Of a DNA stretch of 64,000 nucleotides, positions 8,078-26,490 are shown in pieces. The notes beneath the pieces were generated by a model. It had not been told where the DNA came from. It ran no database searches and saw nothing but the letters and a program-made list of their open reading frames with translations. The stretch is from the NCBI RefSeq assembly GCF_005771495.1, contig NZ_VAUW01000024.1, positions 1 through 64,000 on the forward strand. The letters are read 5' to 3'. This DNA is from Maribacter sp. ACAM166 (lineage in GTDB: Bacteria; Bacteroidota; Bacteroidia; Flavobacteriales; Flavobacteriaceae). A program made the translations under genes and the position numbers. Every line of letters starts with the position of its first letter. The stretch's first letter is position 1.

Positions 8078-9076
8078 GTGCCCAAAATAGGAGACATACA
8101 ACTACCTGATTTTCCGTTGCTTTTAGCGCCAATGGAAGATGTGAGCGACCCACCTTTTCGTGCCCTTTGCAAGGAGCTAGGAGCCGATGTGGTCTACACT
8201 GAATTTATTTCGTCTGAAGGATTGATTCGTGATGCTGCAAAGAGCGTCATGAAGCTTGATATTTATGAGAAGGAACGCCCTGTAGGTATCCAAATATTTG
8301 GAGCTAATTTGGAGAGTATGTTGCAGTCCGTAGCGATTGTGGAGAAATCAAATCCCGATATTATTGATATCAATTTTGGTTGTCCGGTAAAAAAAGTAGT
8401 TTCCAAAGGTGCGGGTGCGGGTATTTTAAAAGATATCGACTTAATGGTTTCGTTGACCGAAGCTATGGTGAAACATACCAACTTACCCATTACGGTAAAA
8501 ACCCGCTTGGGCTGGGATGATGATTCCATAAAAATTGTTGAGGTTGCAGAGCGTTTACAAGACGTAGGATGTAAAGCGATTTCTATTCATGGACGTACAA
8601 GAGCACAAATGTATAAAGGCAATGCCAATTGGGAACCTATTCGAGAAGTAAAAAATAATCCACGAATGCATATTCCGGTATTTGGCAATGGTGATGTAGA
8701 TACGCCAGAAGCTGCTTTGAAAATGCGTGATGAATTTGGATTAGATGGCGCAATGATTGGTCGTGCTAGTATAGGCTACCCTTGGATTTTTAGGGAAATA
8801 AAGCACTTTTTTGAAACGGGCACTCATCTAGAACCGCCAACCATGGAAGAACGGGTTGATGCTGCACGGCGTCATTTACAAATGGCCATTGACTGGAAAG
8901 GGGAAATCTTGGGTGTTTTCGAAACGCGCAGACACTACACCAACTATTTTAAGGGCATTCCTAATTTTAAGGAATATCGTATGAAAATGGTCACCAGTGA
9001 CGATTCCGCATCTGTTTTTGCAGCGTTTGATGAGGTGTTGGAAAAGTTTGGGGATTATAATTTCAGCTTAGCCTAA
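8078..9076 (+). CDS. dusB: tRNA-dihydrouridine synthase, DusB-like
   Basis: A 332-residue flavin enzyme that reduces uridines in the tRNA D-loop to dihydrouridine. The N-terminal TIM barrel opens with LLAPMEDVSDPPFRALC and carries the catalytic-cysteine segment DINFGCPVKKVVSKGAGAG, then TVKTRLGWD, SIHGRTRAQMYKG and the FMN-phosphate segment IGRASIGYPWIF. A small helical C-terminal domain follows. The start is GTG, which gives MPKIGDIQLPDFP, and a -7 box sits just upstream. It converges with the permease gene and their 3' ends overlap by 4 bp. The length and motifs fit the DusB group; the exact uridine targeted cannot be told from sequence alone. Confidence 0.93.
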   Translation: MPKIGDIQLPDFPLLLAPMEDVSDPPFRALCKELGADVVYTEFISSEGLIRDAAKSVMKLDIYEKERPVGIQIFGANLESMLQSVAIVEKSNPDIIDINFGCPVKKVVSKGAGAGILKDIDLMVSLTEAMVKHTNLPITVKTRLGWDDDSIKIVEVAERLQDVGCKAISIHGRTRAQMYKGNANWEPIREVKNNPRMHIPVFGNGDVDTPEAALKMRDEFGLDGAMIGRASIGYPWIFREIKHFFETGTHLEPPTMEERVDAARRHLQMAIDWKGEILGVFETRRHYTNYFKGIPNFKEYRMKMVTSDDSASVFAAFDEVLEKFGDYNFSLA

Positions 9077-10278
9077 GCATCCACTAATTTTTTATTGATT
9101 CTGCTACTTGCAATTTTAGAGGCAATTATCCCCAAGACGATAATTGTAGCCAATACAACTATAACATTAATGAACTCAAACTTTACAGGGTAGGCAAGGG
9201 AAGGAGTAATTCTTAACCAGCCAATGGCAAGTTGTGACCAAATTAAAAGCACGCCGATACCCACACCGATTAACCCTCCAAAACCAGTAACTAAAATTCC
9301 CTGTACAAAATAAATACGCCTTAAATCTTTGATGGTCGTTCCAAGGCTGTAGAGTGTTTTAGAATTCTGTTGCTTGTCCAATATCATCATGATGATAGCA
9401 CCTACTACATTGAAGAGGGCAATAATGAGCACCAGGGTAAAAATCAGGTACGTAGCAACATTCTCGGTATTCAGCATTTTATAGAGTGTGCTATTCAGTT
9501 GCTGTCTATTTTTTAGTTGAACGCCAGATCCTAAAACAGCTTGTAGGTCAGAACGAACAGCACTAGGCTCAACTCCGTCATCCATTTTAAAATTAATACC
9601 CGAAATCTGCAGCGAATCTTTCTCTAACAACGCTTGTGTTAAGGCGAGGTCAGCGAATACATACTTATTGTCTAAATCGGCCTCTACGGCATACACACCA
9701 CCGATAACCATAGGCAATTGATTATATAGCGATGAAATACTTTGCTGAGAGATGGAACCCTTACCGGGCTTGAAGGCATAAATCTGCATGGGACTGCGAA
9801 ACTGGTTGATCGTAACCCCTAATATATTGGCGACACCCAAACCGGAAACAACCTGAGACGCATTAATGGTCCAATCACCCATATACAAGGTGCTATCCAC
9901 ACCAGTAACCTTGGTGTAATTACTGTCAATACCTTTTATATAGGCAATATGGTTTTTTCCTCTGTGTTCAAGGGAAACCTTCTCCTCCAATTCTTTGGAA
10001 TAATAGGCAAGTCCTTCTATTTGATTGAGTTTTTGTTCCTGCTCGGGGGATAGTGAAAACGTTTTTCCAGCTACGGGTAAGGCTTTTAATTGTGGATCAA
10101 AAGATTCAGTAAATGACAGGCTAAAGGTTTTTAGTCCGGCGAAAGCCGAAAGAACTATGAACAGTGCCGCAGAACCGATAACAATAACTAAAAAAGTAAT
10201 AAAATTAATGATGTTGACCGCGTTCTGGGTGCTTTTAGAACGCACATACCGTTTGGCGATATATAAGGGAAAATTCAA
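9073..10278 (-). CDS. ABC transporter permease of the LolC/LolE (FtsX) family
   Basis: 401 residues with one N-terminal membrane segment (IINFITFLVIVIGSAALFIVLSA), a large periplasmic MacB/FtsX-like domain, and three C-terminal segments near 275-300, 325-350 and 370-390. This is the LolE-type topology used to extract lipoproteins from the inner membrane for transport to the outer membrane. The ATPase subunit is not next door. It lies 4 bp downstream of rbfA on the same strand, so the two are probably co-transcribed, as is common in Bacteroidota. The family is clear; the lipoprotein-sorting role is inferred. Confidence 0.85.
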   Translation of the reverse strand: MNFPLYIAKRYVRSKSTQNAVNIINFITFLVIVIGSAALFIVLSAFAGLKTFSLSFTESFDPQLKALPVAGKTFSLSPEQEQKLNQIEGLAYYSKELEEKVSLEHRGKNHIAYIKGIDSNYTKVTGVDSTLYMGDWTINASQVVSGLGVANILGVTINQFRSPMQIYAFKPGKGSISQQSISSLYNQLPMVIGGVYAVEADLDNKYVFADLALTQALLEKDSLQISGINFKMDDGVEPSAVRSDLQAVLGSGVQLKNRQQLNSTLYKMLNTENVATYLIFTLVLIIALFNVVGAIIMMILDKQQNSKTLYSLGTTIKDLRRIYFVQGILVTGFGGLIGVGIGVLLIWSQLAIGWLRITPSLAYPVKFEFINVIVVLATIIVLGIIASKIASSRINKKLVDA

Positions 10279-10282
10279 TTGA

Positions 10283-10675
10283 TCAGGACTTTTTTCGCTT
10301 TGGCAGCAAATCCCTGTTCTCCATAGGGTTTTCCTCGCGTTTTAAGGACTTTTCTATATTCTCAATATAATCTAACGAATCGTCTAGGTAGAACATTAAT
10401 TCGGGCACCCTACGTAATTGGTTTCGGGTACGTTGCGAAAGTTCGTGTTTTATAAGGGGCTGGTTCGATTTTATCCCTTCCATTAATTCCCCTGCCTTAT
10501 CGTTTGGAAAAATACTTAGGTAAATCTTTGCGATGGATAGGTCTGTGGTCACCGCAACTTTGGATACAGAAATTAGCGTATTCCGTAACCCACCATCAAT
10601 AGTGGCCTTTTGTAAAATGTCTACAATATCCTTTTGAATGACCCCAGCTATTTTACGTTGTCTTTGCGTTTCCAT
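10283..10675 (-). CDS. rbfA: Ribosome-binding factor A
   Basis: 130 residues, the normal RbfA size, with a KH-like fold: METQRQRKIAGVIQKDIVDIL, the strand TVTKVAV-like segment ISVSKVAVTTDLSIAKIYLSI, and RVPELMFYLDDSLDYIENIEK near the C-terminus. It binds the 30S subunit and assists 16S rRNA 5'-end maturation, including during cold adaptation. It is the first gene of a two-gene unit with the LolE-type permease. Confidence 0.95.
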   Translation of the reverse strand: METQRQRKIAGVIQKDIVDILQKATIDGGLRNTLISVSKVAVTTDLSIAKIYLSIFPNDKAGELMEGIKSNQPLIKHELSQRTRNQLRRVPELMFYLDDSLDYIENIEKSLKREENPMENRDLLPKRKKS

Positions 10676-10741
10676 ACTGCAAAAGTAGGTAGAAAAAATG
10701 TATCTTGACCGCTATGTGATGGATCGTGAAGTAAATAAGGC

Positions 10742-11155
10742 ATGAAAAAAATTGAACATTTGGGAATTGCGGTAAAGGACATAGAAACTTCCAACACCCT
10801 TTTCGAAAAATTATTGGGCGTAGCTCCTTATAAACAGGAAGCTGTAGCCTCAGAAGGTGTGCTTACTTCCTTCTTTCAAAACGGACCCAATAAGATAGAA
10901 TTATTGGCATCCACAGACGTGGACGGACCTATTGCCAAATTCTTGGAAAAGAAAGGTGAAGGCATACACCACGTAGCTTTTGAAGTGGATGATATTGTAG
11001 CGGAAATGGCACGGTTGAAGTCCGAAGGCTTTACGCTGTTGAATGAGAAACCTAAAAAAGGGGCCGATAATAAATGGGTCGCCTTTGTACACCCTAAGAG
11101 TGCTAATGGCATGTTGGTAGAACTCTGCCAAGAAGCCTCACTCAAAAATGAATAA
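10742..11155 (+). CDS. mce: Methylmalonyl-CoA epimerase
   Basis: A 137-residue single glyoxalase/VOC fold with two beta-alpha-beta-beta-beta units. It has the metal-ligand histidine in KIEHLGIAVKD, the second in GIHHVAFEVDD and a C-terminal glutamate in NGMLVELCQ. It interconverts the (R) and (S) forms of methylmalonyl-CoA in the propionate/succinate route. It is divergent from rbfA. The methylmalonyl-CoA mutase genes are not in this window. Confidence 0.93.
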   Translation: MKKIEHLGIAVKDIETSNTLFEKLLGVAPYKQEAVASEGVLTSFFQNGPNKIELLASTDVDGPIAKFLEKKGEGIHHVAFEVDDIVAEMARLKSEGFTLLNEKPKKGADNKWVAFVHPKSANGMLVELCQEASLKNE

Positions 11156-11383
11156 TTTAATAAAAGCTCATTTTCACACTGAGCCTGCCTTGCCGGCATG
11201 GTAAGATTAGTCGAGGCGCTACATTGATAAAAGTTAAATCTGCACAATGAATACGCCTGTTACATTGAACGCAGTCTAAGTGTCTTCAAGATCAACAAGC
11301 CACTTTTGAACCTTACATGTTGCACCAACGGATAGACAGCCTCAATTAACTAAGAAAGTATTCTACAAGTATGCATAAAAATC

Positions 11384-11414
11384 TTGTGTTGATTAAAAAT
11401 AAGTGGTAATATTG
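11384..11414 (+). promoter_or_regulatory. Promoter of the CAU tRNA
   Basis: TTG at 11384-11386, a 20-base spacer and TAATATTG at 11407-11414 match the Bacteroidota promoter (TTG, then TAnnTTTG with one mismatch). Transcription would begin a few bases before the tRNA 5' end at 11430. Confidence 0.65.
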
Positions 11415-11429
11415 CATCCGCAATTAGCG

Positions 11430-11503
11430 GGTCCTATAGCTCAGCTGGTTAGAGCACCTGACTCATAATCAGGTGGTCCCTGGTTCGAGTCCAGGTGGGA
11501 CCA
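11430..11503 (+). tRNA. tRNA with CAU anticodon (Met elongator or Ile2)
   Basis: A complete 74-nt cloverleaf. The acceptor is GGTCCTA with TGGGACC, the D-arm is GCTC/GAGC, the anticodon stem is CCTGA/TCAGG around loop CTCATAA, and the T-arm is CCTGG/CCAGG around TTCGAGT. The discriminator is A and no CCA is encoded. The CAU anticodon fits elongator Met or the lysidine-modified isoleucine tRNA; sequence alone does not decide which. It is the integration site of the element array that follows, and its 3' half is reproduced at 30,381-30,426. Confidence 0.95.
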
Positions 11504-11504
11504 C
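11459..11504 (+). repeat. Left attachment repeat (tRNA 3' half), element 1
   Basis: 46 bases from inside the anticodon stem to one base past the discriminator are identical to 30,381-30,426 in the same orientation. This is the duplicated core left by a tyrosine integrase acting at a tRNA 3' end. The tRNA stays intact because the element restores the sequence. Confidence 0.92.
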
Positions 11505-11850: not shown

Positions 11851-14800
11851 ATGGCATTATTTCAAACTTCCGTACTTAAGAATTACCTCAAGCAATTAGA
11901 TGAAAAAACAGTTAATAAAGCATATTTAAAATATGTTTCCTATTTTCAGAATGCCACCATACAAGAAAATATAAGAAACTCTAAAGAAGAGCAGTTTCAG
12001 GCCACATTTCTAAATGAACTCTTTGTTTCGATTTTAGGATATACGCTCAATCCAAATCCTGATTTTAACCTTGCTACTGAATTTAAAAACCAAAAGAATA
12101 ATAGAAAAGCTGATGGGGCCATATTATCAGGTGATATTGCAATTGGGGTTATTGAATTAAAAGGCACTAATACCAAGGACTTGGAGAGTATTCGCAGACA
12201 AGCGTTTGATTACAAAGCCAATCAAAAAGGTTGTGTTTATGTAATCACTTCAAACTTCGAAAAGCTTCGTTTTTATATAAATGATGCGACAGAATTTGAA
12301 GAATTTAATCTCTTTGAATTAACAGTGGAGCGCTTTAAGCTTTTATACCTCTGTTTGCATAGAGTCAACTTACTTACTAACCTTCCTTTGTCAATTAAGG
12401 AGTCATCCTTGGTAGAGGAGGAAAAAATAACCAAACGTTTCTATGCGGACTATTCTTTGTTTAAAAGGGAATTGTACCGCGATCTAGTACGGCGAAATGT
12501 GGTTCGATTAAAGAAATATAGGAAAGCGGAATTACAAGAGGTTTCTCTTGGTGAAGTTGGCCATGAGGAGATGGCCCGATTAGAAAAAAATGTTAAGCTC
12601 GGTCTATTTAAAAAATCACAAAAATTGATTGATCGCTTTTTGTTCATCTTTTTCTCAGAGGACAGGGGCTTATTGCCTCCAAATTCCACTATTCAAATCT
12701 TGGACAAATGGAAAGCAGATGTTGATTTTGGAGATGAAAGACCCCTATATGACCTGTTTAAGCAATACTTCAATTTTTTGGACCAAGGCCGGCAAGGCAC
12801 GACTTCAAGGGCTGAAATTTATGCTTATAATGGTGGGCTTTTTAAACCAGATACGGTATTAGATAATCTAGAAATAGACAATGATTTATTATATAGACAC
12901 GCCCTTAATCTTGCAACGTACGATTTCGAAAGTCAAGTTGACGTAAATATTTTAGGGCATATTTTCGAGAATTCACTGAATGAGATAGAAAGTATTAACG
13001 CCGAAATTGAAGGGTCGAAATTCGATAAACAAAAAAGCAAGCGAAAAAAAGATGGGGTATTCTACACCCCTAAATACATTACCAAATATATCGTAGAAAA
13101 TACGATTGGTAAACTATGTGACGAAAAGAAAGTTGCTTTAGGCTTTAAGGAGGAGGAGTATTTTAAAGGGAGAGCCAAGAGGCCTAAAACGAAAATACTG
13201 GAGTTGGTGCAACTCCTAGACTCTTATAGATCTTGGTTATTGGAACTTACCATATGTGACCCTGCTTGTGGGTCTGGGGCATTCTTAAATCAAGCATTAG
13301 ACTTTTTGATAAAGGAACATAAATATATTGATGAACTTAAGGCAAAAATCTTAGGTGGTGGTTTGATCTTTAGTGATATTGAAAACACCATTTTAGAGAA
13401 TAATATTTATGGAGTTGACCTTAATGAAGAATCTGTTGAGATTGCCAAACTCTCGCTCTGGTTACGTACGGCACAACCTAGAAGAAAATTGAATGACCTG
13501 AGTAGCAACATTAAGTGTGGCAATAGTTTAATGGCTGATAAAAAAGGAGCCGGTCATAAAGCGTTTGGTTGGGAGCAGGAATTCCAGAAGGTTTTCGAAA
13601 GAGGTGGTTTTGATGTTATAATTGGCAATCCACCATATGTAAAACTAGAGACTATAAAGGAGCAATCTTTACAGCTAGAAAAATACAATTTTGAAACATT
13701 TGACAAAAGAGGAGATTTGTATGTGCTATTTGTGGAGAAAGGTTTTAATATACTAAAACCAAAAGGGGTATTGTCTTATATAATGCCTAATAAATGGTTA
13801 CAGGCCGGCTATGGACAGCCCTTACGTTCATATTTTTTGACTAAAGCATTACATCAATTAATTGATTTTGGTGACATCCAGATTTTTCAAGGAGCAACGA
13901 CGTATCCTATAATTTTTGTTGCAAGTAATAATAGTCCGGAGGAAGAATTTAAAGTTGCTGTTTTACAATCTGCAAAGGCGACCGATTTCGAAACCAATGT
14001 GGAGCTAAGTTTTGAAAGTTATAAAACAAGCTCCTTTGATAAGAATACATGGGTAATTTCATCAAAAGGTGATAAAGAAATTTTAAATAAACTAAATGAC
14101 AAATATATACCATTAAAAGAATTTGTGCATGGGAATGCATTAAGGGGCGTTTTAACAGGACTAACCGAGGCGTTTTTAATATCTCAAGAAGTTTATAATA
14201 AAATGGTGCAGGAAGATGCCAAGGCAGTAGAATTTTTGTTTCCTTTTTTATTGGGTCGTGAGGCAAAACCGTTTGCCAACCCAACACCACTAAATTATCT
14301 TTTACTTTTTGAAAAGGGTTTTACTAAAAGTAAATTAGGTGAAGTTGCTGAAGAAGAAGCTTGGCTTTGGCTACAAAAGCAATATCCGTCGATTGCCGAA
14401 TGGTTATCTCCCTTCGAAGCAAGAGCTAAAAAGCGAACCGATAAAGGTGATTTTTGGTGGGAATTAAGAGCATGCGATTATTATTCCGATTTCAAATTAC
14501 CAAAAATAATGTACCAGGTATTACAAGTTAAACCTTGTTTTATTTATGACGAGCAAGGCTTGTACTGTAACAATTCTATGTGGATAATCCCTACTGAAAA
14601 TAAAGGTCTAGCAGGCGTATTAAATTCCAAAATGGGTTGGTGGCTTATTACCAAATATTGTACACAAATACAGAATGGTTGCCAATTGATATGGAAGTAT
14701 TTTGGGCGAGTGCCAATACCTAATCTGAACGGTGAACTAGATTTATTGGTAACTGATATGATTGCATTAACAAAATCGTTAGATACGCAACTTGATAGTT

Positions 14801-15084
14801 TATTAAACTTACTAAAATCAAAATTCAGCATAGAAAAATTTAGTAAAAAACTTCAAAGCTGGCATGATTTAGATTTTGCAACGTTTAGCAAAGAGCTCAA
14901 AAAGCAAAAAATACAATTGAGTTTGGCTGATGAAGCAGAGTGGCTTAACTATTTTGAAGAAGAAAAAATGAAAGCACAAGAACTGCAACTTCAAATTAGC
15001 CAAACAGAGTCAGCAATTGACCAAATGGTTTATGAGCTTTATGAGTTAACAGAAGAAGAGATTGAAATTGTTGAGAATAATTAA
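11851..15084 (+). CDS. Type IIG restriction-modification enzyme (Eco57I-like endonuclease-methyltransferase)
   Basis: 1077 residues that combine both activities in one chain. The N-terminal domain has a PD-(D/E)XK-type site (D88 in RKADGAI, then E102-L-K104 in VIELKGT). The central N6-adenine methyltransferase has the SAM motif DPACGSGAFL at about 470 and the catalytic NPPY at about 593. The C-terminal part looks like target-recognition and coiled-coil regions. The enzyme would methylate host adenines and cut unmodified DNA. It is the first cargo gene of element 1, and no separate specificity or methylase gene is adjacent. The next gene starts 15 bp downstream, so they may form one unit. The recognition site cannot be predicted here. 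Confidence 0.9.
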   Translation: MALFQTSVLKNYLKQLDEKTVNKAYLKYVSYFQNATIQENIRNSKEEQFQATFLNELFVSILGYTLNPNPDFNLATEFKNQKNNRKADGAILSGDIAIGVIELKGTNTKDLESIRRQAFDYKANQKGCVYVITSNFEKLRFYINDATEFEEFNLFELTVERFKLLYLCLHRVNLLTNLPLSIKESSLVEEEKITKRFYADYSLFKRELYRDLVRRNVVRLKKYRKAELQEVSLGEVGHEEMARLEKNVKLGLFKKSQKLIDRFLFIFFSEDRGLLPPNSTIQILDKWKADVDFGDERPLYDLFKQYFNFLDQGRQGTTSRAEIYAYNGGLFKPDTVLDNLEIDNDLLYRHALNLATYDFESQVDVNILGHIFENSLNEIESINAEIEGSKFDKQKSKRKKDGVFYTPKYITKYIVENTIGKLCDEKKVALGFKEEEYFKGRAKRPKTKILELVQLLDSYRSWLLELTICDPACGSGAFLNQALDFLIKEHKYIDELKAKILGGGLIFSDIENTILENNIYGVDLNEESVEIAKLSLWLRTAQPRRKLNDLSSNIKCGNSLMADKKGAGHKAFGWEQEFQKVFERGGFDVIIGNPPYVKLETIKEQSLQLEKYNFETFDKRGDLYVLFVEKGFNILKPKGVLSYIMPNKWLQAGYGQPLRSYFLTKALHQLIDFGDIQIFQGATTYPIIFVASNNSPEEEFKVAVLQSAKATDFETNVELSFESYKTSSFDKNTWVISSKGDKEILNKLNDKYIPLKEFVHGNALRGVLTGLTEAFLISQEVYNKMVQEDAKAVEFLFPFLLGREAKPFANPTPLNYLLLFEKGFTKSKLGEVAEEEAWLWLQKQYPSIAEWLSPFEARAKKRTDKGDFWWELRACDYYSDFKLPKIMYQVLQVKPCFIYDEQGLYCNNSMWIIPTENKGLAGVLNSKMGWWLITKYCTQIQNGCQLIWKYFGRVPIPNLNGELDLLVTDMIALTKSLDTQLDSLLNLLKSKFSIEKFSKKLQSWHDLDFATFSKELKKQKIQLSLADEAEWLNYFEEEKMKAQELQLQISQTESAIDQMVYELYELTEEEIEIVENN

Positions 15085-16350: not shown

Positions 16351-17475
16351 TTATACACGGTCCGCTTTATACTTTGCTGGAATTTTATCTTTAATAGACT
16401 CTTTAAAACGATGAGTAGTAGAATAGGATACCTTGCCATTAAATGCAAGTTGACCGACAACGATTGAAGGATGTAAATCAATTTCTTTTGAAACATTTCG
16501 CACCAATTCCTCAGTTATATAGTTCATGTTAAATTTTAAAGCAGAGAAAATAGAAGATTTAAGAAGGACAACATCTGTCAATTCATTTGCTTCCTTTTCT
16601 TTTTTAGATGTCTTTTTCGAACTTGTATCGTCTATGAAAATAAGATTGCTGTCATCCGTTTTTGAAAGGTGTAAATAGACATGACTTAGCTCATGAGAAA
16701 GCGTGTGCCAGAAATTATCTATTCTATCAAACCGGCCGGTTAAACATACAACAGGGGTTTTGCCATCAAGGAATGCAGCACCATCTAAATAAGTTTTTGA
16801 TAAATGAGATAAATAAACAAATTTTACCCCTACCTCTTTAAGTTCATTTAGAAAATTCTTCACACCATTTGGTTGAGTAGTATAAGAATGCATTGTCTGC
16901 ATTAAATTATAAAGTGCAGCACGATCAAATTTTTCAACATCCAATTTTTTAGAAAAATTTAAAACCATTTGATACCAAATTACAGCGTTCTTTGGATTAA
17001 ATTTCTCCTTAAAAGCCTCTGACTTTTTATAGTTTAATTTTTTTTCTAAAGCATTAATAAAGTTGAAACCTGATTCTGAAATTTTATTTTGCCCCCAGAA
17101 GTCATTGATTTGTTTCTCTAGGTTTGAGACCTTGTCAAACTTTTTTAGCCAACCTTTTTTCAGCATTTCTGTTATCGGCATCTCTATGTATATCAATTTT
17201 TTACGATATACAGAATCATCTTTAGCGTCAAGATTGTTTTTGGTCAATTGATATTTTGTATCAAGTTGCATCCAATCTTCAGCAGATAAATCAAATGCAC
17301 TTTGTAACAATTTAGCAGTTGAAATAGTAATTGATTTTTTATCCTTTACCATTTCATTAACATGTTTTGTTGAGATGGATAGAACTTGAGCGAGATCCTC
17401 TTGAGTCCATATATAATCATCGAGGAAATATTTCAAAGCCTGACCTGGGCTTTGAAATTGCGACAGTTTTGACAT
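16351..17475 (-). CDS. HTH transcriptional regulator with ImmA/IrrE-type metallopeptidase domain
   Basis: 374 residues. An XRE/HigA-like helix-turn-helix at about 20-60 (WTQEDLAQVLSISTKHVNEM) is followed by a middle helical region. The zinc-protease domain has the motif H261-E-L-S-H265 and a downstream glutamate in KEKEANELTD, the ImmA/IrrE pattern. Related proteins cleave or sense a repressor or toxin partner and relieve repression. The gene is divergent from the ubiquitin-like operon. The 549-bp region between them has repeated ACCATTTAGGTTAT motifs overlapping promoters in both directions, so I infer that this protein controls both transcripts. No separate small toxin gene is adjacent. Confidence 0.8.
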   Translation of the reverse strand: MSKLSQFQSPGQALKYFLDDYIWTQEDLAQVLSISTKHVNEMVKDKKSITISTAKLLQSAFDLSAEDWMQLDTKYQLTKNNLDAKDDSVYRKKLIYIEMPITEMLKKGWLKKFDKVSNLEKQINDFWGQNKISESGFNFINALEKKLNYKKSEAFKEKFNPKNAVIWYQMVLNFSKKLDVEKFDRAALYNLMQTMHSYTTQPNGVKNFLNELKEVGVKFVYLSHLSKTYLDGAAFLDGKTPVVCLTGRFDRIDNFWHTLSHELSHVYLHLSKTDDSNLIFIDDTSSKKTSKKEKEANELTDVVLLKSSIFSALKFNMNYITEELVRNVSKEIDLHPSIVVGQLAFNGKVSYSTTHRFKESIKDKIPAKYKADRV

Positions 17476-17543: not shown

Positions 17544-17651
17544 TACAATTTAGTACTACAATATAACCATTTAGGTAATAGTATGCAAATATAACGCACG
17601 ACTAACATTTTAGGTTATAAGACAAAATATGATAATTACCATTTAGGTTAT
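17544..17651. promoter_or_regulatory. Operator-like repeats between the protease regulator and the ubiquitin-like operon
   Basis: Three direct copies of a motif near ACCATTTAGGTTAT lie at about 17,566, 17,604 and 17,638, with a weaker one at about 17,544. They overlap candidate -7 boxes for the leftward regulator gene (TATATTTG at 17,586-17,593 and TACTTTTG at 17,538-17,545, minus strand). They end just before the rightward -7 box at 17,675. Repeated sites of this kind usually bind an autoregulatory HTH protein. Confidence 0.6.
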
Positions 17652-17674: not shown

Positions 17675-17682
17675 TATCTTTG
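17675..17682 (+). promoter_or_regulatory. Putative promoter of the ubiquitin-like operon
   Basis: TATCTTTG is an exact TAnnTTTG box reading toward the operon. No good -33 TTG is present; the position it would occupy falls in the operator repeats, as expected for a regulated promoter. A 15-bp palindrome (GATTCAA-a-TTGAATC, 17,692-17,706) lies at the predicted transcript start. The leader to the first start codon would be about 335 nt. Confidence 0.5.
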
Positions 17683-17705
17683 CATTAATTCGATTCAAAT
17701 TGAAT

Positions 17706-17793
17706 CAAAAAAAATCAGGCAGAAAACTACCTGATTTGGATTTTAAATAGAATTCACAAGGGCTACGAACCCGAGTAAACCTCAATGTGTCGT
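17706..17793 (-). ncRNA. Predicted small RNA (about 88 nt), antisense to the operon leader
   Basis: On the minus strand a near-perfect promoter (TTTG, 20 bases, TACCTTTG; 17,799-17,830) is followed by a short stretch without an ORF. It ends in a strong intrinsic terminator: AAATCAGG (17,730-17,737) pairs with CCTGATTT (17,712-17,719), followed by eight Us. An internal GGG/CCC hairpin (GGGTTCGTAGCCC) lies midway. The RNA would be complementary to the 5' leader of the ubiquitin-like operon and would end upstream of the regulator's operators. I do not recognise an RNA family. Confidence 0.65.
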
Positions 17794-17798
17794 TACTG

Positions 17799-17830
17799 CA
17801 AAGGTATAAATTCTTCTTTAAAACACCAAA
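17799..17830 (-). promoter_or_regulatory. Promoter of the small RNA
   Basis: The minus strand has TTTG (17,827-17,830), a 20-base spacer and TACCTTTG (17,799-17,806). Both boxes and the spacing fit the Bacteroidota consensus. This is the best promoter match in the window. Confidence 0.65.
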
Positions 17831-18024
17831 TGGTATTTTCTGCTTGATTATTAATTAATTATTTAAAGCACTTAATTCGTCTTACTATCTTTTTTATCTG
17901 ATTAAAACGGTTGATCAATAGCTATTAGATCGCCAATTCCTTTAAACACCTTACGGAATGTTTGGTTTGTGATGGAGGTTTTAGTCTTGTAGCTCAATTT
18001 TTTTTAATTATTAAATACAGTAAG

Positions 18025-18984
18025 ATGACTGCAAATAAAAAAGTCGATTTATATGATTGCTATTGTAAAGGAGTAAAACCTGAAATAGCATATGAGTACT
18101 CTTTTAAAATACTTAAAGAGGAATACTCAACAAGAAAACAAGTTTTAATAGGTAATGATCTACATGAACTATATGGTTCTAGTGCTGCTACCCATTTTAT
18201 TAGAATGGTAGTAAAAGAAGGCAAAAAGGAAGTTGGCCCTTTGACTAAAATAGATCTAACAAAATGCGGAATAGAGAAATTTATTATTCGTCCCTATGAG
18301 CAAGAAACTATAGATTTGGAAACTTGTTATTGCGAGGGTGCGACCCCAATAATTACTTTTCAATACCTCCTTAAAATAAATAGGGAAAAGTATAAATCTG
18401 AGAAGGAAATATTAACTGGTGCAGAAATTTTGGCTTTAGCTGGAAAAGATTTTAAAACTTATAGATTAAGGATGTTTACCAAAAATGGGAAGGTCATTAT
18501 TGATGCAGACCAAACTATTGACCTTACCAAATGTGGAGTAGAAAGGTTCGTGGCAGAACCTTTGGATTGCACCGAGGGATTTGTTGCAAAAAATCAGTTT
18601 ACTCTACCTGATGAAGATGTACATTTTTTAAATTCAATTGAGAATGAAGCAGAACTGATTCAAGAAGGTAATACAAAGTGGTTAATTCTCAGGAATTACA
18701 AAATTCCAGATGATTATAATGTGGCAATTGCAGATTTAGCAATACTTATACCTCCGCATTATCCAACTGCCGGATTGGATATGGTGTATTTTAATCCTCC
18801 CCTTGCAAGAAAAGATGGTGCTTCTATTAAAGCTTTATCTCATCAATCAATTGAGGGTAAAACATATCAACGTTGGTCCAGGCACAGAACCGCTGCTAAT
18901 AAGTGGAATTCGGATATACACAATATTGAGTCTCATATAGATTTGATGGCGAGATGTTTAATATCAGAACTTGATAAACGTTAA
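18025..18984 (+). CDS. Double ubiquitin-like (multiubiquitin) protein fused to a prokaryotic E2-like domain
   Basis: 319 residues. Two tandem ubiquitin-like domains of the Multiubiquitin family lie at about 7-98 and 99-190. Each starts with a DLxxCYCxG segment and ends with DLTKCG(I/V)E(K/R)F. From about 200 on follows a Prok-E2_E-like domain (LPDEDVHFLNS, YNVAIADLAILIPPHYP, YQRWSRHR, HIDLMARCL). No di-glycine tail is present, because the Ubl units are internal. The usual E2 catalytic cysteine is not obvious; one cysteine lies near the C-terminus. I chose the ATG at 18,025, as the 21 codons before it add nothing family-like. It is the first gene of a three-gene operon, with the next start 5 bp away, and is predicted to take part in a protein-conjugation-like defence pathway. 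Confidence 0.85.
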   Translation: MTANKKVDLYDCYCKGVKPEIAYEYSFKILKEEYSTRKQVLIGNDLHELYGSSAATHFIRMVVKEGKKEVGPLTKIDLTKCGIEKFIIRPYEQETIDLETCYCEGATPIITFQYLLKINREKYKSEKEILTGAEILALAGKDFKTYRLRMFTKNGKVIIDADQTIDLTKCGVERFVAEPLDCTEGFVAKNQFTLPDEDVHFLNSIENEAELIQEGNTKWLILRNYKIPDDYNVAIADLAILIPPHYPTAGLDMVYFNPPLARKDGASIKALSHQSIEGKTYQRWSRHRTAANKWNSDIHNIESHIDLMARCLISELDKR

Positions 18985-18989
18985 TAGCC

Positions 18990-20375
18990 ATGGTACATTT
19001 TAAAATTACAGATAAAATGTGCCAAGAGTTGAAGAACCATCTCCATAACGGAGATGGTTTGGAAGCTCTTGCATTAGTAGTATGCGGACGTTTAAATCAT
19101 GAAAATGATAACTGGCTACTAGCACATGAAATTTTTCTAATGCCCTACGAAAAATGCTCAAGAGATATTGATTACGTAAGTTGGAAAACAGAACATATTG
19201 AACATTTATTAGAAAAAGTAAGAGAGAAAGGTTTCGCTATTATAAAGGTTCATTCACATTTTGTAACGAACTCTGATTTTTCTGAGTTAGATGATGCTTC
19301 AGATAAATCATTTTTTGAAGCCGTATATGGGTGGTCAAACTCTGATTTGCCACATGCAAGCGTTATAATGTATCCTGACGGATCAATGAAAGGCAGAACT
19401 ATTGAAAGCAATATATGCTTTACTACCATTCCTAAAATTACCGTAGTTGGCAGCAATATAAGAGAATTCCATAATAGTTTTTCAGATACATTCATAGGCA
19501 AAGAATTTATTAGAAACCAACAAGCATTTGGTAAAAAAACGACCAAAATGTTGAGAGGTTTAAAAGTTGGAATTGTTGGATGTTCTGGAACTGGCAGTCC
19601 TGTTATTGAACAATTAGTAAGATTAGGTGTTGGTACCATAGTACTAGCGGATGCTGATTTAATTGAACACAAAAACCTTAATAGAATTATAGGTTCTACT
19701 TTTGCTGATGCTAACTCTAATAGACTTAAAGTAGATACAATTAAACGGCACATTGAAAAGATTGGCTTAGGCACAAGAATTATAACCTTTCCAGTAATAA
19801 TTCAAGAGAGCCGAGAAGCTTTAGATTCATTTGCTAGTTGCGATATTATTTTTGGTTGCGTCGATTCTTTTGAAGGAAGATATTATTTGAATTTGATTTC
19901 AACGTATTATTTAGTTCCGTTGATTGATATTGGTATAAAATTGGTTGCTGATGGAGAAGGTGGTATTGATTCAATTAACGGAAACATACACTATGTAGAT
20001 CCAGGTTCAGAAACTCTTATGGAAAGAAATGTTTTTACACAAGAGCAATTGACTGCTGAGAGTTTACGAAGGATTTCCCCGCAAGAATACGAAAAAAGAA
20101 AAGCGTATTTCGATAATTTGGATATAGAAAGTCCTGCTGTAGTAAGTATTAATATGACATTTTCCGCTTTTGCTGTAAATGAGATGTTAGGCAGATTTCA
20201 TCCCTACAGATATAGTGATAATGCTAAGTTTTCCCATACCTGTATTAATTTATCAGATTGGGATATTAATACACAACCTGTAAATGAAACCAAATCTAAG
20301 TCCGCACTAAAACATATAGGAATAGGTAATCTAGAACCCGAATTGGAAATTTATGTAAATGAAACAGCTGTTTAA
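18990..20375 (+). CDS. JAB peptidase fused to an E1-like (ThiF) adenylyltransferase
   Basis: 461 residues. The N-terminal JAB/JAMM deubiquitinase-like domain has E47 and a complete H88-x-H90-x7-S98-x2-D101 zinc motif. The E1-like domain from about 185 has the nucleotide loop VGCSGTGS (G197 to G202), ADADLIE at 220-226 and NLNR at 229-232. In related E1 proteins a cysteine pair often follows a PGG segment. Here the corresponding stretch (VDPGSETLMERNVFT, about 336-350) has none, so the transfer cysteine is absent or elsewhere (C290 or a later one). The fusion would activate and trim the neighbouring Ubl protein. It overlaps the next gene by 17 bp. Confidence 0.88.
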   Translation: MVHFKITDKMCQELKNHLHNGDGLEALALVVCGRLNHENDNWLLAHEIFLMPYEKCSRDIDYVSWKTEHIEHLLEKVREKGFAIIKVHSHFVTNSDFSELDDASDKSFFEAVYGWSNSDLPHASVIMYPDGSMKGRTIESNICFTTIPKITVVGSNIREFHNSFSDTFIGKEFIRNQQAFGKKTTKMLRGLKVGIVGCSGTGSPVIEQLVRLGVGTIVLADADLIEHKNLNRIIGSTFADANSNRLKVDTIKRHIEKIGLGTRIITFPVIIQESREALDSFASCDIIFGCVDSFEGRYYLNLISTYYLVPLIDIGIKLVADGEGGIDSINGNIHYVDPGSETLMERNVFTQEQLTAESLRRISPQEYEKRKAYFDNLDIESPAVVSINMTFSAFAVNEMLGRFHPYRYSDNAKFSHTCINLSDWDINTQPVNETKSKSALKHIGIGNLEPELEIYVNETAV

Positions 20376-20688
20376 ATGGATACTTAGTTTTTTCACAAAA
20401 GAAAGTAAAGCTTTTAAGTTGAAAATAGTTTCTGAATTACCTAAAGAACCAGTTGAGCATACTCTCTACTTAGAAGGTAATGTAAAAGAGGATGACTATT
20501 GGTATGCATTATTAAAATGTCCCTGCGGTTGCGGGGACAATATAATGCTTAACCTAATGACCGATTCAAAACCTTGCTGGGAGGTTAAGCTTATTAACAA
20601 GCACCCTTCAGTTTTTCCATCAATCTGGAGAACGAAAAATTGTAAAAGCCATTTTTGGGTAAAAGAAGGGAAAATATTTTGGTCCTAA
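20359..20688 (+). CDS. DUF6527 family protein of multiubiquitin operons
   Basis: 109 residues with a zinc-binding-looking CPCGCGDNIMLNL segment, a KPCWEV segment, and KSHFWVKEGKIFW at the C-terminus. These are hallmarks of the small DUF6527 proteins that accompany bacterial multiubiquitin/E2/E1/JAB operons. The molecular role is unknown; a metal-binding adaptor is a guess. Its start lies inside the E1 gene (17-bp overlap), so translation is probably coupled. It converges with the NADAR gene with 3 bp between stops. Confidence 0.8.
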   Translation: MKQLFKWILSFFTKESKAFKLKIVSELPKEPVEHTLYLEGNVKEDDYWYALLKCPCGCGDNIMLNLMTDSKPCWEVKLINKHPSVFPSIWRTKNCKSHFWVKEGKIFWS

Positions 20689-20691
20689 AAC

Positions 20692-21321
20692 CTAGGCAAA
20701 ATCTAAATCGAATAAGACATTATTCTCAAATTCAGTTTGAGGATTGCAAACAGTCTCTATTTGATTACCATACAATAAAAAACCATATGTATCAATCGGA
20801 TGCACACACTCAATAGAATTCTTATTGATAATGAATTCTTCCCTTAGTTGCATAAGTAACCTGCCTAAGGCATTTTTACCAATGAGAGTTTTTTCAATAG
20901 TCTCTACCGCAGCCCAATCTTTATCTTTGTTTGATAGCTCGACAATAGCCTTATCTCCAGTTTCACTTAAAACTTTCGAAAACTCGCTAAAATTTTGGGA
21001 TAATTTTACTTTTAATACCCAATACATAATTGAATATTTAACTTCTTCCCAGTCTTGGCGTGTGTATTTTAAATATTTCCTGCTAATCATTTTAGCCGTC
21101 ATTGGGCTATTCTGTTCAATAATCTCTTGTTGAATTTCTGGAAATAGGGGAAATCTACATGCCTGATATAAAGCTTCAGCTGTAGGAATTATTACCTCAT
21201 TTACTCTTATAGAATATCCTGGAGCCATGTTTGACAAACCACCAAATTTAGCTTTTGTACTCTTAAAAGTTACGACTTCGCTTCTATTGTATGTCCTCTG
21301 GGTAATTTTCATCAATGACAA
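20692..21321 (-). CDS. NADAR family protein (predicted ADP-ribose-processing enzyme)
   Basis: 209 residues of the NADAR/YbiA fold: FGGLSNMAPGYSI at 26-38, TAEALYQACRF at 47-57, MTAKMISRKY, and the signature DWAAVETIEKTLIGKNALGRLL near 136-157. Characterised members hydrolyse ADP-ribosyl conjugates, including ADP-ribosylated guanosine, and other members act in riboflavin-intermediate or NAD-linked chemistry. It is the second gene of a minus-strand pair with the phosphoribosyltransferase (15-bp gap), and it abuts the ubiquitin-like operon tail to tail. NADAR proteins are recurrent in anti-phage and toxin-antitoxin settings, which fits the island. Confidence 0.85.
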   Translation of the reverse strand: MSLMKITQRTYNRSEVVTFKSTKAKFGGLSNMAPGYSIRVNEVIIPTAEALYQACRFPLFPEIQQEIIEQNSPMTAKMISRKYLKYTRQDWEEVKYSIMYWVLKVKLSQNFSEFSKVLSETGDKAIVELSNKDKDWAAVETIEKTLIGKNALGRLLMQLREEFIINKNSIECVHPIDTYGFLLYGNQIETVCNPQTEFENNVLFDLDFA

Positions 21322-21336
21322 TATAATAAGATTTGT

Positions 21337-22395
21337 TTATAATCCTCTATTTTTAACGCAAAAAAGTGGTGTCCAATTGTGTCCTGGCACGTCCCACCAA
21401 AATACTAGTGGACAAGTGTTGGAAATATTACGCCAGGTAAAAAACAAAGTTCCAGTCCCGAAGGTTCTATGCGACCTCACAGTATCTCCTAAAGGCCTTT
21501 TTCTTTTGTCAGGGTTTTCAGATTTAACTTTACTAAGAATTTCCAGTCCTTTATTCAAAAAAATTGATTCAATTCTCAGTCTATTTTCAGAACTACTAAA
21601 AAAAGTCTCTTTTTTTGGCATATTTGATGGACGAAATGCAGGAACCTTTTCGTGTACTTCTTCTAGTTTAGCTAAATATTCTAAAGCTTCTCCAGATTGT
21701 TCCTTAACAGGGTAGATACAATTTGCCTTTTGTTTTGGCCATTTCACTTGGTTTTCAATAATGTAATCATGTCCAACTATGAGCCGTTTTTTGATGGCAT
21801 CGTCGAATTCCTTCATAAGGCGAAACTCCATATTTCCGAACCCTAATTGGTGATAGCAGAAAAAGCTAACCGCTATTGTTTTGGTATTGGCCAAAACCGC
21901 TTTGTAATTTTCATTGACACCATCTTCTTTCTCAGATAACCAAGTTTTTAAATCTTTAAATACAGTTCCACCCGTTGCAAGTATATCATCGAAATAAATA
22001 AAATTACGTTTAGGACGATTAGCAAAATTCTTATAATTTATCATATGCTCCGTTTGAAGTATATCATCTATTATTTCTAATAATTCTGGCTGACTTTTAT
22101 TGGCTATTTGCATATCAAAAAAATGAGTGTTTTCCACCAGCACATTCATATTAGGATACTTATAGAATTTCATTATTTCTGTTAGTCTATTTCTTAGTAA
22201 GTCTTTAGCTTTTTCCTTAGATATATATATATTAGGAAGAAAATGTAATAGTTCCTCTAAGACAAAGGAACCATCTTCTCCAAATTGATTTGCCCATATA
22301 ACAATATGCTCTATAGTAATTTCAAATTTTCTAGCTCCATAATCACATTGATAATCCTTGATTATTTCATAGATGGCTTCCGCTGTTTGCTCCAT
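21337..22395 (-). CDS. Phosphoribosyltransferase-like conflict-system protein (PRTase-CE type)
   Basis: 352 residues with a clear PRPP-binding motif FIYFDDILATGGT at about 132-144, the pattern of type I phosphoribosyltransferases. The C-terminus GTGTLFFTWRNISN, then PLVFWWDV and WTPLF, is the tail of the PRTase-CE group predicted in nucleotide-based conflict systems. The substrate is unknown. It is the first gene of the pair with NADAR. I infer a shared pathway in which the transferase makes or consumes a ribosyl or phosphoribosyl product and NADAR processes a related adduct. Confidence 0.8.
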   Translation of the reverse strand: MEQTAEAIYEIIKDYQCDYGARKFEITIEHIVIWANQFGEDGSFVLEELLHFLPNIYISKEKAKDLLRNRLTEIMKFYKYPNMNVLVENTHFFDMQIANKSQPELLEIIDDILQTEHMINYKNFANRPKRNFIYFDDILATGGTVFKDLKTWLSEKEDGVNENYKAVLANTKTIAVSFFCYHQLGFGNMEFRLMKEFDDAIKKRLIVGHDYIIENQVKWPKQKANCIYPVKEQSGEALEYLAKLEEVHEKVPAFRPSNMPKKETFFSSSENRLRIESIFLNKGLEILSKVKSENPDKRKRPLGDTVRSHRTFGTGTLFFTWRNISNTCPLVFWWDVPGHNWTPLFCVKNRGL

Positions 22396-22767: not shown

Positions 22768-23319
22768 CTAGAAAACCGGCACGGCATTATTCGATGCTGA
22801 GCAGCACCTATCAATAACCTCCAATATTTGTTCCGATGTACATTCATCTACTACCGATAAATCAAATTCACTAGCAAAATCATATAAGAATAATTTGAGT
22901 TCCCCATAAGTCTCATGTTCCAAACCACTACCATTCGGTTCGTAGATTTTATAGGCCAAAGACCTGCCAAATTCCCTATCGAATTCCTTTTTGGAACGGG
23001 TCTCATCATATTCGAAATCTTCCAAATAGGATATATATTTTTGGTTTAATGCCCAAAAATATAACGCGGTAATCTCATCTTTTTCAAGATTTTTTTTGAA
23101 TCGACATAAGAATCCGGATAGGGTAAGCCCAATTTCATAGGGCATGCTAAAACCATAAAAATTCATACTTTGAAACAAGTCGGTAATTGTTCCGTTATTT
23201 GATTGCGATTCAAAACAAAAGGCCATCAATAATTTACGGAACACTACTTTTTTAACATATGCAACCGTGACCGAACTGACTTCTTCTGTGATGAACAATT
23301 TATCGTTTATGGTTATCAA
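22768..23319 (-). CDS. Hypothetical protein, 183 residues
   Basis: No family recognised. The protein is acidic and soluble, with no signal peptide or membrane segment. It starts MITINDKLFITEEVSSVTVAY and ends with a cysteine-containing stretch (DECTSEQILEVIDRCCSAS). Predicted secondary structure looks mainly helical. It stands alone between the right flanking hairpin of the ubiquitin-like module and the repeat copy at 23,430. It may be a further cargo gene of element 1; nothing in its context gives a function. Confidence 0.55.
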   Translation of the reverse strand: MITINDKLFITEEVSSVTVAYVKKVVFRKLLMAFCFESQSNNGTITDLFQSMNFYGFSMPYEIGLTLSGFLCRFKKNLEKDEITALYFWALNQKYISYLEDFEYDETRSKKEFDREFGRSLAYKIYEPNGSGLEHETYGELKLFLYDFASEFDLSVVDECTSEQILEVIDRCCSASNNAVPVF

Positions 23320-23429
23320 AGCTTTGAAAATATTTCTGTTGGTCTGGGGTTCCGATTTGTAGATTATACAAAGATATTAAGTAACAATTATTGTTCAACG
23401 GGAAATTGGCATTTAATTTTTGCACCCTT

Positions 23430-23622
23430 TTATATTCCCATGCTCCTGCGGAAGTCGCGCAAACCTTCCACTCCAATCCTCCACATGCGTACGCGCTTCG
23501 CCGGTCCGAAGCACAAGTCTTTCCGTTCCAGTTTTGCACGACACCCTTGGTGCCGCGCAAAAGCCCAAGCGGCGAAAAAACCGCTTGATCTTTCCTCTCC
23601 CTGTCCACAAATTTTTGTTTTT
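23430..23622. repeat. GC-rich imperfect repeat, left copy (pairs with 25,690-25,883)
   Basis: About 190 bases, much richer in GC than the surroundings. Conserved blocks are shared with the second copy, including CTGCGGAAGTCGC, CTCCAATCCTCC, TTTCCGTTCCAGTT and GCACGACACCCT. Between blocks the copies differ: this one has a GCTTCG/CGAAGC hairpin, the other a different stem. Several overlapping short frames run through both strands, but none shows convincing protein constraint. The copies flank the Fic gene. This covers most of the gene-free stretch 23,320-23,828. Confidence 0.7.
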
Positions 23623-23828
23623 CCGAAAGAGGACAGAAATTTTTACTTCTCTTTACTATTTATTGACACTTTAGGATTTAAACAAAGAATTAATTCGCTT
23701 ACTTAAGCAGCAGCAGCAGTTGAAGCTATAAGACAGCTTAACCAATCAGTTTATAGTCTATGGAGCGAAATGAATCTTGACTATAGCTCTTAGCGACCTG
23801 CATCACGAAAATAAATATTATTGGTCTA

Positions 23829-25478: not shown

Positions 25479-25689
25479 AAAAACCAGGGGTATCACAAAA
25501 TGTGATACCCCATTAGCTAAATCAACTTTTCCGATCTTGTTCCTATGTACCAGATACTCCTTTATCATTTTGATAAAAAGAATTAGCCGTTTAACTTATT
25601 TTACTCTACTGTAAACCTTAAAAATTGGGGCTATCTCTAAATAAAGTATCAATGCCAATTTTGTATTGAGCAGCTAATTTTCCATGATA

Positions 25690-25883
25690 TGTATTCCCCA
25701 AGCCCCTGCGGAAGTCGCACAATCCTTCCGCTCCAATCCTCCCCACCGGACACGCTACGCCGGTCCGCACGGGAGGCCTTTCCGTTCCAGTTCTGCACGA
25801 CACCCTCGGGGCCGCACAAAAGAACAATGGGGAAAAACCCTTGCTCTTTTCTCTCCCTGACCACAAATTTTTTGTTTTTTCTA
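25690..25883. repeat. GC-rich imperfect repeat, right copy
   Basis: The partner of 23,430-23,622, with the same conserved blocks and the same end (CCCTGACCACAAATTTTTTG). The inner hairpin differs: here CGGAC pairs with GTCCG. It lies upstream of the mobilization genes, probably its original place. Short frames through it are common artefacts in related elements and I do not call them genes. The rest of 25,308-26,105 holds the operator repeats and the oriT-like hairpins. Confidence 0.7.
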
Positions 25884-26017
25884 TGTTCCCCAAACACCAA
25901 ACAAGACCATATATGTTATCGGTCTGGTCTCATATAATCTGATATGTACCGATATGGTTTTATGTCATAAAATACTGATTGTTAAGTTGTTATAATCAAT
26001 AACTATATATTATATTT

Positions 26018-26105: not shown

Positions 26106-26489
26106 ATGGCCAATAGCAAAGGAGGCAGGAAACGCCTTGGGGACAGAAAAAGGGAGCACGCCATAACGCTCAGGTTCAATGGCGCGGAACTGGAAAAAGT
26201 GAAGGGCATCCTGCGGTCGTATAATCTTGATATTGGAAAAAGGGGAACCGTCGGCCCATTCCTAAGAAAGCTCATATTGAACGGGGAGACGATAAAGGAG
26301 AAACGGATTCCCGATGGACTTTCCAACCTCAGTTACCAGATGAACAGGATAGGGAACAACATCAACCAACTGGTCAAGGTGGCCAACTTCAAGAACATGC
26401 GCAGCCCGAACTCGAACCTCGAACGGGAGATAGAAAAGTCCAACAGACTGATGCACGAACTCATAGAAAAAATCAACAACCAACGGTAA
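26106..26489 (+). CDS. mobC: MobC-like relaxosome accessory protein
   Basis: 127 residues. A basic N-terminus (KGGRKRLGDRKREHAITLRFNGAELEKV) suggests a ribbon-helix-helix DNA-binding fold, and the MobC signature LSNLSYQMNRIGNNINQLVKVANF follows at about 77-100. It would bind oriT and help the relaxase nick. It is 1 bp from the relaxase start in an operon and richer in GC than the cargo genes. Confidence 0.9.
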   Translation: MANSKGGRKRLGDRKREHAITLRFNGAELEKVKGILRSYNLDIGKRGTVGPFLRKLILNGETIKEKRIPDGLSNLSYQMNRIGNNINQLVKVANFKNMRSPNSNLEREIEKSNRLMHELIEKINNQR

Positions 26490-26490
26490 G

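Follow-up and report, generated by a model that had tools for sequence, protein, structure and literature searches.

Bub operons encode bacterial ubiquitination-like systems (Gong 2025 and Ye 2026, as cited in PMC13373217). According to PMC13373217, DNA-damage responsive regulators, i.e., CapW or CapH+CapP, are found beside 219 of 544 Bub operons, and protection against phage has not been shown for Bub operons so far. They form a recent putative immune class, for which a conserved RNA in the control region provides a concrete handle.

Here, we study such a control region within a 64,000-nt stretch of Maribacter sp. (in the following, the window). Its operon matches known Bub operons in its E1, its E2 and, weakly, its multi-ubiquitin protein but differs by the presence of an RNA gene. 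The available text of PMC13373217 does not mention such a gene in a Bub control region; our literature search, with the original Gong 2025 and Ye 2026 papers outside its coverage, found no description of an RNA at Bub operons. As for CapH+CapP of Bub and CBASS operons, an HTH repressor and an ImmA/IrrE peptidase are encoded beside the operon. In contrast to CapH+CapP, both form one fused chain, and an antisense RNA is located between regulator and operon. An Xre-peptidase fusion protein (PD-lambda-2B) is likewise part of PD-lambda-2 as described in PMC9519451. Different from PD-lambda-2, no HigB-like toxin was found among the scanned neighbours, which included part of the nearby small ORFs. 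The best PADLOC model for the HTH-ImmA protein is PD-Lambda-2_B.

RNAI, CopA and similar RNAs are cis-encoded antisense RNAs of plasmids and toxin genes. The RNA discussed here is likewise predicted to be short, folded, terminated and complementary to the 5' leader of its presumed target. Different from these RNAs, it is associated neither with plasmid copy control nor with a toxin gene. Instead, it accompanies a Bub operon together with a repressor of the damage type, and its second type (see below) shows loop conservation. The features of the region are as follows.

16351-17475, minus strand: fusion of HTH and ImmA/IrrE metallopeptidase with HELSH motif, CapH/CapP-like regulator
17564-17578: presumed operator palindrome TAACCATTTAGGTAA, located just within the repressor transcript
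17586-17593, minus strand: -7 box TATATTTG of the HTH-ImmA gene, its own TAnnTTTG box
17636-17650: palindrome TTACCATTTAGGTTA adjoining the rightward promoter, presumed operator
17675-17682, plus strand: -7 box TATCTTTG of the rightward (Bub) promoter, with TAnnTTTG there in 4/4 loci of the same type
~17688-18024, plus strand: predicted Bub leader
17707-17793, minus strand: predicted RNA with 12-nt single-stranded 5' end, hairpin 1 (17781-17751), A-rich linker and terminator
17707-17737, minus strand: terminator with hairpin 17737-17712 (stem 11 bp, loop UUUU) and eight Us (17714-17707)
17806-17799, minus strand: -7 box TACCTTTG of the RNA promoter, consensus Bacteroidota type
17830-17827, minus strand: -33 box TTTG of the RNA promoter, exactly 20 nt from the -7 box
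17836-17847, minus strand: conserved box TCAAGCAGAAAA, located upstream of the -33 box at a distance of 5 nt
18025-18984, plus strand: multiubiquitin + E2 (BubB-like), with Pfam and structure matches
18990-20375, plus strand: JAB-E1 (BubCD-like), JAB match slightly below the Pfam cut-off
20359-20688, plus strand: DUF6527 protein, final gene of the operon

Within the operon, Multi_ubiq, Prok-E2_E and ThiF are matched above the Pfam cut-offs, while Prok-JAB reaches 23.4 for a cut-off of 25. With regard to solved structures, the E1 protein matches Citrobacter BubCD over the JAB-E1 length (E 1.2e-68) and the E2 part matches BubB (E 2.3e-22); the match to the multi-ubiquitin protein 9cd2 is weak (E 4e-4). 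Given the matches to BubCD and BubB, we consider this a Bub operon, i.e., a multi-domain ubiquitin-like protein, an E2 and a JAB-E1 are predicted in one operon. The leftward gene appears to be of the CapH+CapP type, i.e., HTH and ImmA/IrrE with HExxH beside an immune operon, here as a fusion, and the HExxH motif is present in all four cassettes introduced below. Palindromes of the TTACC-N5-GGTAA type are located near the HTH-ImmA promoter as well as next to the rightward one. The three relatives show three of them each, at similar spacing; the window holds two at equal score and a weaker third that was read by eye. Ten neighbouring proteins were scanned, and none of them has a Cas family in its match list.

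The leftward HTH-ImmA gene and the rightward three-gene operon are separated by an intergenic gap of 549 bases, in which the original prediction had placed a minus-strand RNA gene with a TTTG-N20-TACCTTTG promoter and an eight-U terminator. In Bacteroidota sigma-A promoters, a TTTG -33 box is found about 20 nt upstream of the -7 box. The latter reads TAnnTTTG according to PMC9723704. Both boxes are present in the putative RNA promoter, while the candidate rightward promoter shows the -7 box only. The rightward promoter predicted at 17,675 thus stands with regard to its -7 box but is a weaker match, since a TTTG box is absent at a distance of 18-21 nt. Three TTTG-N18-21-TAnnTTTG sites exist in the 64 kb, all on the minus strand and none on the plus strand, and a terminator at a distance of 80-230 nt exists for the RNA promoter alone. 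When the intergenic region was dinucleotide-shuffled (both strands), 0.033 promoters per shuffle were observed and promoter-terminator pairs in 0/3000 shuffles. Given both observations, the promoter-terminator pair is not a chance product, which confirms the prediction at the sequence level. Its length is now given as ~87 nt, resulting from the predicted start at ~17793 and the end of the eight-U run at 17707. Judged by its sequence, an RNA gene with promoter and terminator is a real part of the Bub control region. The RNA folds with z = -4.1 (hairpin 1 and terminator). It contains no ATG; a TTG frame is open for 26 codons in the window, compared with at most 6 codons in any of the three close relatives. 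We make no claim for a string that resembles an operator and covers the -7 box of the RNA, which only two loci have.

To find related loci, we screened 397 genomes of the family by blastn. Beside two true relatives, namely G377 (89%) and G245 (76%), only short matches were found among the 58 genomes that pass an E-value of 0.01. The cassette of Confluentibacter sediminis was added by protein search such that four loci of the same type are available (window, i.e., G000, G377, G245 and Confluentibacter). All four show the gene order HTH-ImmA, RNA, multiubiquitin-E2, E1, DUF6527. The RNA of the window is 71-89% identical to that of the other three cassette genomes. Conservation had been set beforehand as the test on which the original prediction could fail; promoter, length (87-89 nt), the two hairpins and the terminator are kept in 4/4 loci. 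The terminator hairpin differs in Confluentibacter only, by one additional loop U, and is thus uninformative on base pairing. In hairpin 1, two pairs are altered on both sides, which is reached by 49/500 shuffles, i.e., the covariation of this first RNA type is weak.

We built an RNA model (R1) from these four sequences, which matches the window at 17708-17793 with 95 bits, the window RNA being one of its sources. Over the 397 family genomes, at least 95 bits are reached in G000, G377 and G245 only, with one copy each and always with the cassette, while matches elsewhere have at most 44.6 bits; the remaining genomes of the set were scanned for the RNA alone. Since 90/397 genomes show hits with E of at most 0.1, R1 might be suspected to describe a general gene terminator. 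We rejected this, as the 27 further hits that were inspected (restricted to hits with a fetched locus) have no correctly placed -7 box, with TAnnTTTG found for one of them, at -40. These weaker hits look like ordinary gene terminators. We also discarded the RNA as part of a transposon or repeat, since in its own genome only the window copy matches well and the next-best match covers 33 bases at 82%. Blastn found no phage or plasmid copies of the window region. For viral contigs, three protein scans revealed no Bub relative but one distant HTH relative, and no exact RNA pattern was found.

By eye, the HTH-ImmA 5' leader of G245 and Confluentibacter (L039, L042) holds the terminator motif a second time (AATCAGGTAGTTTAATTGCCTG and a variant), and this copy could pair with the RNA. 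Also by eye, a 5-bp hairpin is visible near the start of the Bub leader (17692-17706), formed by GATTC/GAATC in the window and TTCAG/CTGAA in relatives.

A second RNA type was found at distant multiubiquitin loci. The plasmid of Pontibacter actiniarum encodes a multiubiquitin protein with 42% identity over 65% of the query. The gap upstream of its operon holds, on the opposite strand, TTTG-N20-TACCTTGT and a strong terminator that together define an RNA of ~108 nt. Eight nt before its -33 box, we find the box TCAGGCAGAAAA, which is also the variant that G377 carries in place of TCAAGCAGAAAA. The four flavobacterial loci show the same box with 0 to 2 changes, located 5-8 nt before their -33 boxes. 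While a shared 12-mer at the matching position is observed in 6/20000 shuffles, any shared 12-mer occurs in 414/3000, i.e., the exact 12-mer in Pontibacter is weaker support than at first sight.

A search in 203 genomes of another order of the window's class (the order of G442) resulted in multiubiquitin relatives in 7 genomes. Six full-length loci were read, three of which (G1287, G1140, G1217:C28) carry a Pontibacter-type RNA. Together with Pontibacter, they form the four founders of a second model (R2), all from outside the window's order. The founders share an outer helix P1, helix P2 (GAGGU loop GCCUC or close), helix P3 and the terminator. In the hand-picked helices, all base pairs are standard although P1 is present as three different sequences; invariant unpaired letters are GAU-A in the P2 loop and G-CA in the P3 loop. 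Searching five whole genomes with R2, we obtained a single copy from each of G1217, G1287 and G1140; G442 and G1102 gave no hit.

A tblastn search of 11 HTH-ImmA loci chosen by their regulator alone revealed multiubiquitin genes in two of them, i.e., G085 and G130, both from the window's family. The G085 locus encodes Multi_ubiq, a 119-aa protein without match, and ThiF. In the G130 operon (L118:1756-4028), which has an RNA of the second type ahead, Multi_ubiq is accompanied by DUF6791-ThiF and DUF6527 replacing a BubCD-like E1. In both loci, R2 matches the previously unseen gap upstream of the multiubiquitin gene in antisense orientation (E 1.3e-7 and 1.5e-4). When each of the two RNAs is folded by itself, P1, P2, P3 and the terminator appear in the minimum-energy structure; their -7 boxes have one mismatch each.

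The original prediction had proposed to look for compensatory changes in homologous loci. Such changes are found in the six distant multiubiquitin loci, where an RNA of similar layout occupies the same place: pairs form in 83% of the alignment cells and seven pairs are changed on both sides. For covariation score, paired cells and double-change cells, the six-sequence values are reached by 0/500 shuffles and all slides are lower, though the alignment was fitted to the structure of R2, which flatters pair counts. For the four founders alone, a slide by +1 equalled the covariation score.

Neither RNA has a family match in Rfam release 15. At gathering scores, the window gave one tRNA, and a search of six related loci with E up to 1 (excluding those of G130 and G085) likewise gave one tRNA only. 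R1 misses the second type, with at most 19.9 bits at its loci and this on the other strand, and R2 misses the first type. Since the models miss each other's type, common descent rests on place, promoter and box; on these grounds, both types likely share an ancestor.

Over all multiubiquitin loci examined, an RNA was recognised in 10/23, eight of which were used to build the models. The 23 loci comprise 21 distinct loci among 22 sources (L052 equals L101) plus G085 and G130; the count omits partial multiubiquitin matches in G529, G1100 and G571 as well as most of 98 plasmid records. R1 was run on 17/23 loci, i.e., all but the six plasmid loci L109-L114. Given that only 10/23 loci have a recognised RNA and 13/23 have none, the RNA is an add-on. 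Some loci offer little room for it, since a divergent gene starts 99 bases upstream in G442, 82 bases upstream in G1217:C17, and 131-164 bases upstream in four of the six plasmid loci (annotated as HTH or XRE in three). In G1102, the distance to an HTH-ImmA-like gene is 443 bases, which leaves room for an RNA, and none was recognised.

We further asked with which neighbour the RNA is linked. Comparing window and G377, identity is 88.5% for the RNA and 66-81% for the Bub proteins but only 52% for HTH-ImmA; the HTH of G377 is 73-75% like those of G245 and Confluentibacter. The low HTH-ImmA identity implies that the regulator was exchanged while RNA and Bub genes stayed together. Placing the exchange point at hairpin 1 of the RNA was dropped, since the numbers do not locate it. 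For the nine other HTH-ImmA loci (up to 1.5 kb on each side), tblastn found no confirmed Bub protein; a weak match in L095 (E 0.001) was not confirmed by the wider locus. R1 reaches at most 14.6 bits in these nine loci, and R2 gives only a 16.3-bit match in L098, i.e., they lack a convincing RNA. In G1140 and G1217, no gene follows downstream on the RNA strand, and the adjacent subtilase and ImmA genes lie on the other strand. Regulator exchange, RNA-poor HTH-ImmA loci and the arrangement in G1140 and G1217 together show that the RNA goes with the multiubiquitin operon. It stays beside multiubiquitin genes across two orders and different E1 types.

With regard to geometry, the original prediction saw the RNA antisense to the Bub leader, which as a position is supported by the sequences: in 10/10 loci, no TAnnTTTG is found on the Bub strand between RNA promoter and Bub start. 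The original interpretation is borne out in part, with antisense action or a guide/cofactor role as putative functions. Upstream of the RNA, a strict TAnnTTTG in Bub sense exists in 7/10 loci (the four cassettes, G1140, G130 and G085) and a one-mismatch box in G1287 and Pontibacter, while G1217 shows none. Without a Bub-sense box between RNA and operon, the Bub leader is predicted to cover the whole RNA in antisense. In the window, this leader would extend ~337 nt to the ATG at 18025, close to the 335 nt given before, and the convergent RNA and Bub starts are ~105 bases apart.

The reading we favour, with little more than even confidence, is that of a structured cis-antisense RNA that would restrain Bub expression beside the CapH/CapP-like repressor, i.e., act as a second lock. 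HTH-ImmA, repressor and peptidase in one chain, presumably binds the palindromes at its own and at the rightward Bub promoter and, by analogy with CapH+CapP, may be released after DNA damage. As no clear operator accompanies the RNA promoter, constitutive production of the RNA is expected. The RNA gene faces the rightward promoter, whose predicted 5' leader would be complementary to the whole RNA. The folded RNA might thus pair with the nascent leader, or transcription might collide, such that leaky Bub transcripts would be cut or stopped and only strong induction would outrun the RNA. This model fits the convergent promoters, the full overlap and the add-on distribution. Against it count the weak covariation of the first type, the rightward promoter without TTTG, the missing Bub-sense -7 box of G1217, the 13/23 loci without RNA and the strand preference of G130 discussed next, as well as the conserved loop letters of the R2 type, which plain antisense pairing does not need.

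Several alternatives relate to which strand carries the function. In 9/10 loci, the RNA strand gives the more stable predicted fold of the two strands. The preference is narrow in Confluentibacter (-25.1 vs -24.2 kcal/mol), where for the hairpin-1 region alone the complement folds better, and it is reversed in G130 (-28.8 vs -30.2 kcal/mol for the complement). The preference for the RNA strand is in line with an RNA that acts in trans within the Bub system or its sensing, bound by a protein or phage product, where the antisense position would be a by-product of a compact locus. We regard such a role as possible but tentative. It is kept in play by the invariant unpaired loop letters of the four second-type founders and by the persistence of the RNA beside different partners (E2 fusion with BubCD-like E1, or DUF6791-ThiF); also the remaining neighbours vary, i.e., a divergent regulator in eight loci and a same-strand upstream gene in G1140 and G1217. 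On the other hand, no such RNA was recognised in 13/23 multiubiquitin loci, i.e., the operon does not generally need it, and no RNA-binding domain is among the operon's Pfam matches. If the RNA acts in trans, an RNA would be tied to bacterial ubiquitin-like signalling. We consider it doubtful that the RNA is a working part of the ubiquitin-like conjugation system, where Bub proteins or an invader product would bind it and the RNA would gate conjugation or induction. To our knowledge, no RNA component of a bacterial ubiquitin-like system was known before, so that this RNA would, if true, be the first.

The same strand comparison (9/10) speaks against the plus-strand Bub leader as the functional element, i.e., an attenuator-like structure for which the minus-strand RNA would be secondary. 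In the minimum-energy folds of the four flavobacterial leaders, the terminator segment A (17712-17737) pairs with the distant segment B (17832-17849), with 14, 14, 11 and 12 of 14 A bases paired, and sequence conservation extends to ~17875 and then falls. However, U-G pairs of the RNA strand would be A-C on the leader, and Pontibacter, with a different terminator sequence, keeps segment B but misses its partner A, which leaves this reading improbable. Very little speaks for the RNA as the terminated leader of the downstream HTH-ImmA gene on the same strand: the direction agrees in 8/10 loci (counting Pontibacter's divergent set), but the HTH gene has its own TAnnTTTG box in the window (17586-17593) as in G130 and G085, and the neighbour in G1140 and G1217 runs the opposite way such that there is nothing to lead. 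Given the few sequences, one could finally think of promoter-like and terminator-like strings that arose by chance or are relics without a stable transcript. We give this hardly any credence in view of the 0/3000 shuffles, the 4/4 conservation and the second type, which occupies the same position and shows compensatory changes.

Beside the antisense RNA that we favour as a restraint on Bub, the surroundings of the cassette were inspected. A Type IIG restriction enzyme (window 11851-15084) and NikA/MobC-like and relaxase genes (26106-28776) are located nearby, which places the Bub cassette in a mobile, defence-rich island. After the Bub operon, NADAR and PRTase-CE genes are found on the opposite strand (20692-22395). 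In the window (9073-11504) and in Ulvibacterium (L038:6172-8425), the same flank is observed, i.e., three similar genes that by eye resemble a permease gene, rbfA and an epimerase gene, a tRNA-Met and then the island. The Confluentibacter cassette is also located beside a tRNA (Leu). The shared flank near a tRNA is probably a common integration hot spot. In G019 (L100:7663-8214), only a C-terminal HTH-ImmA remnant with an internal stop is left, and the gene beside it resembles the gene two after Bub in Confluentibacter (weak HNH_4 match). Finally, window positions 23300-23710 and 25618-25940 show, by eye, similar reading frames on both strands and are probably copies of a repeated non-coding element.
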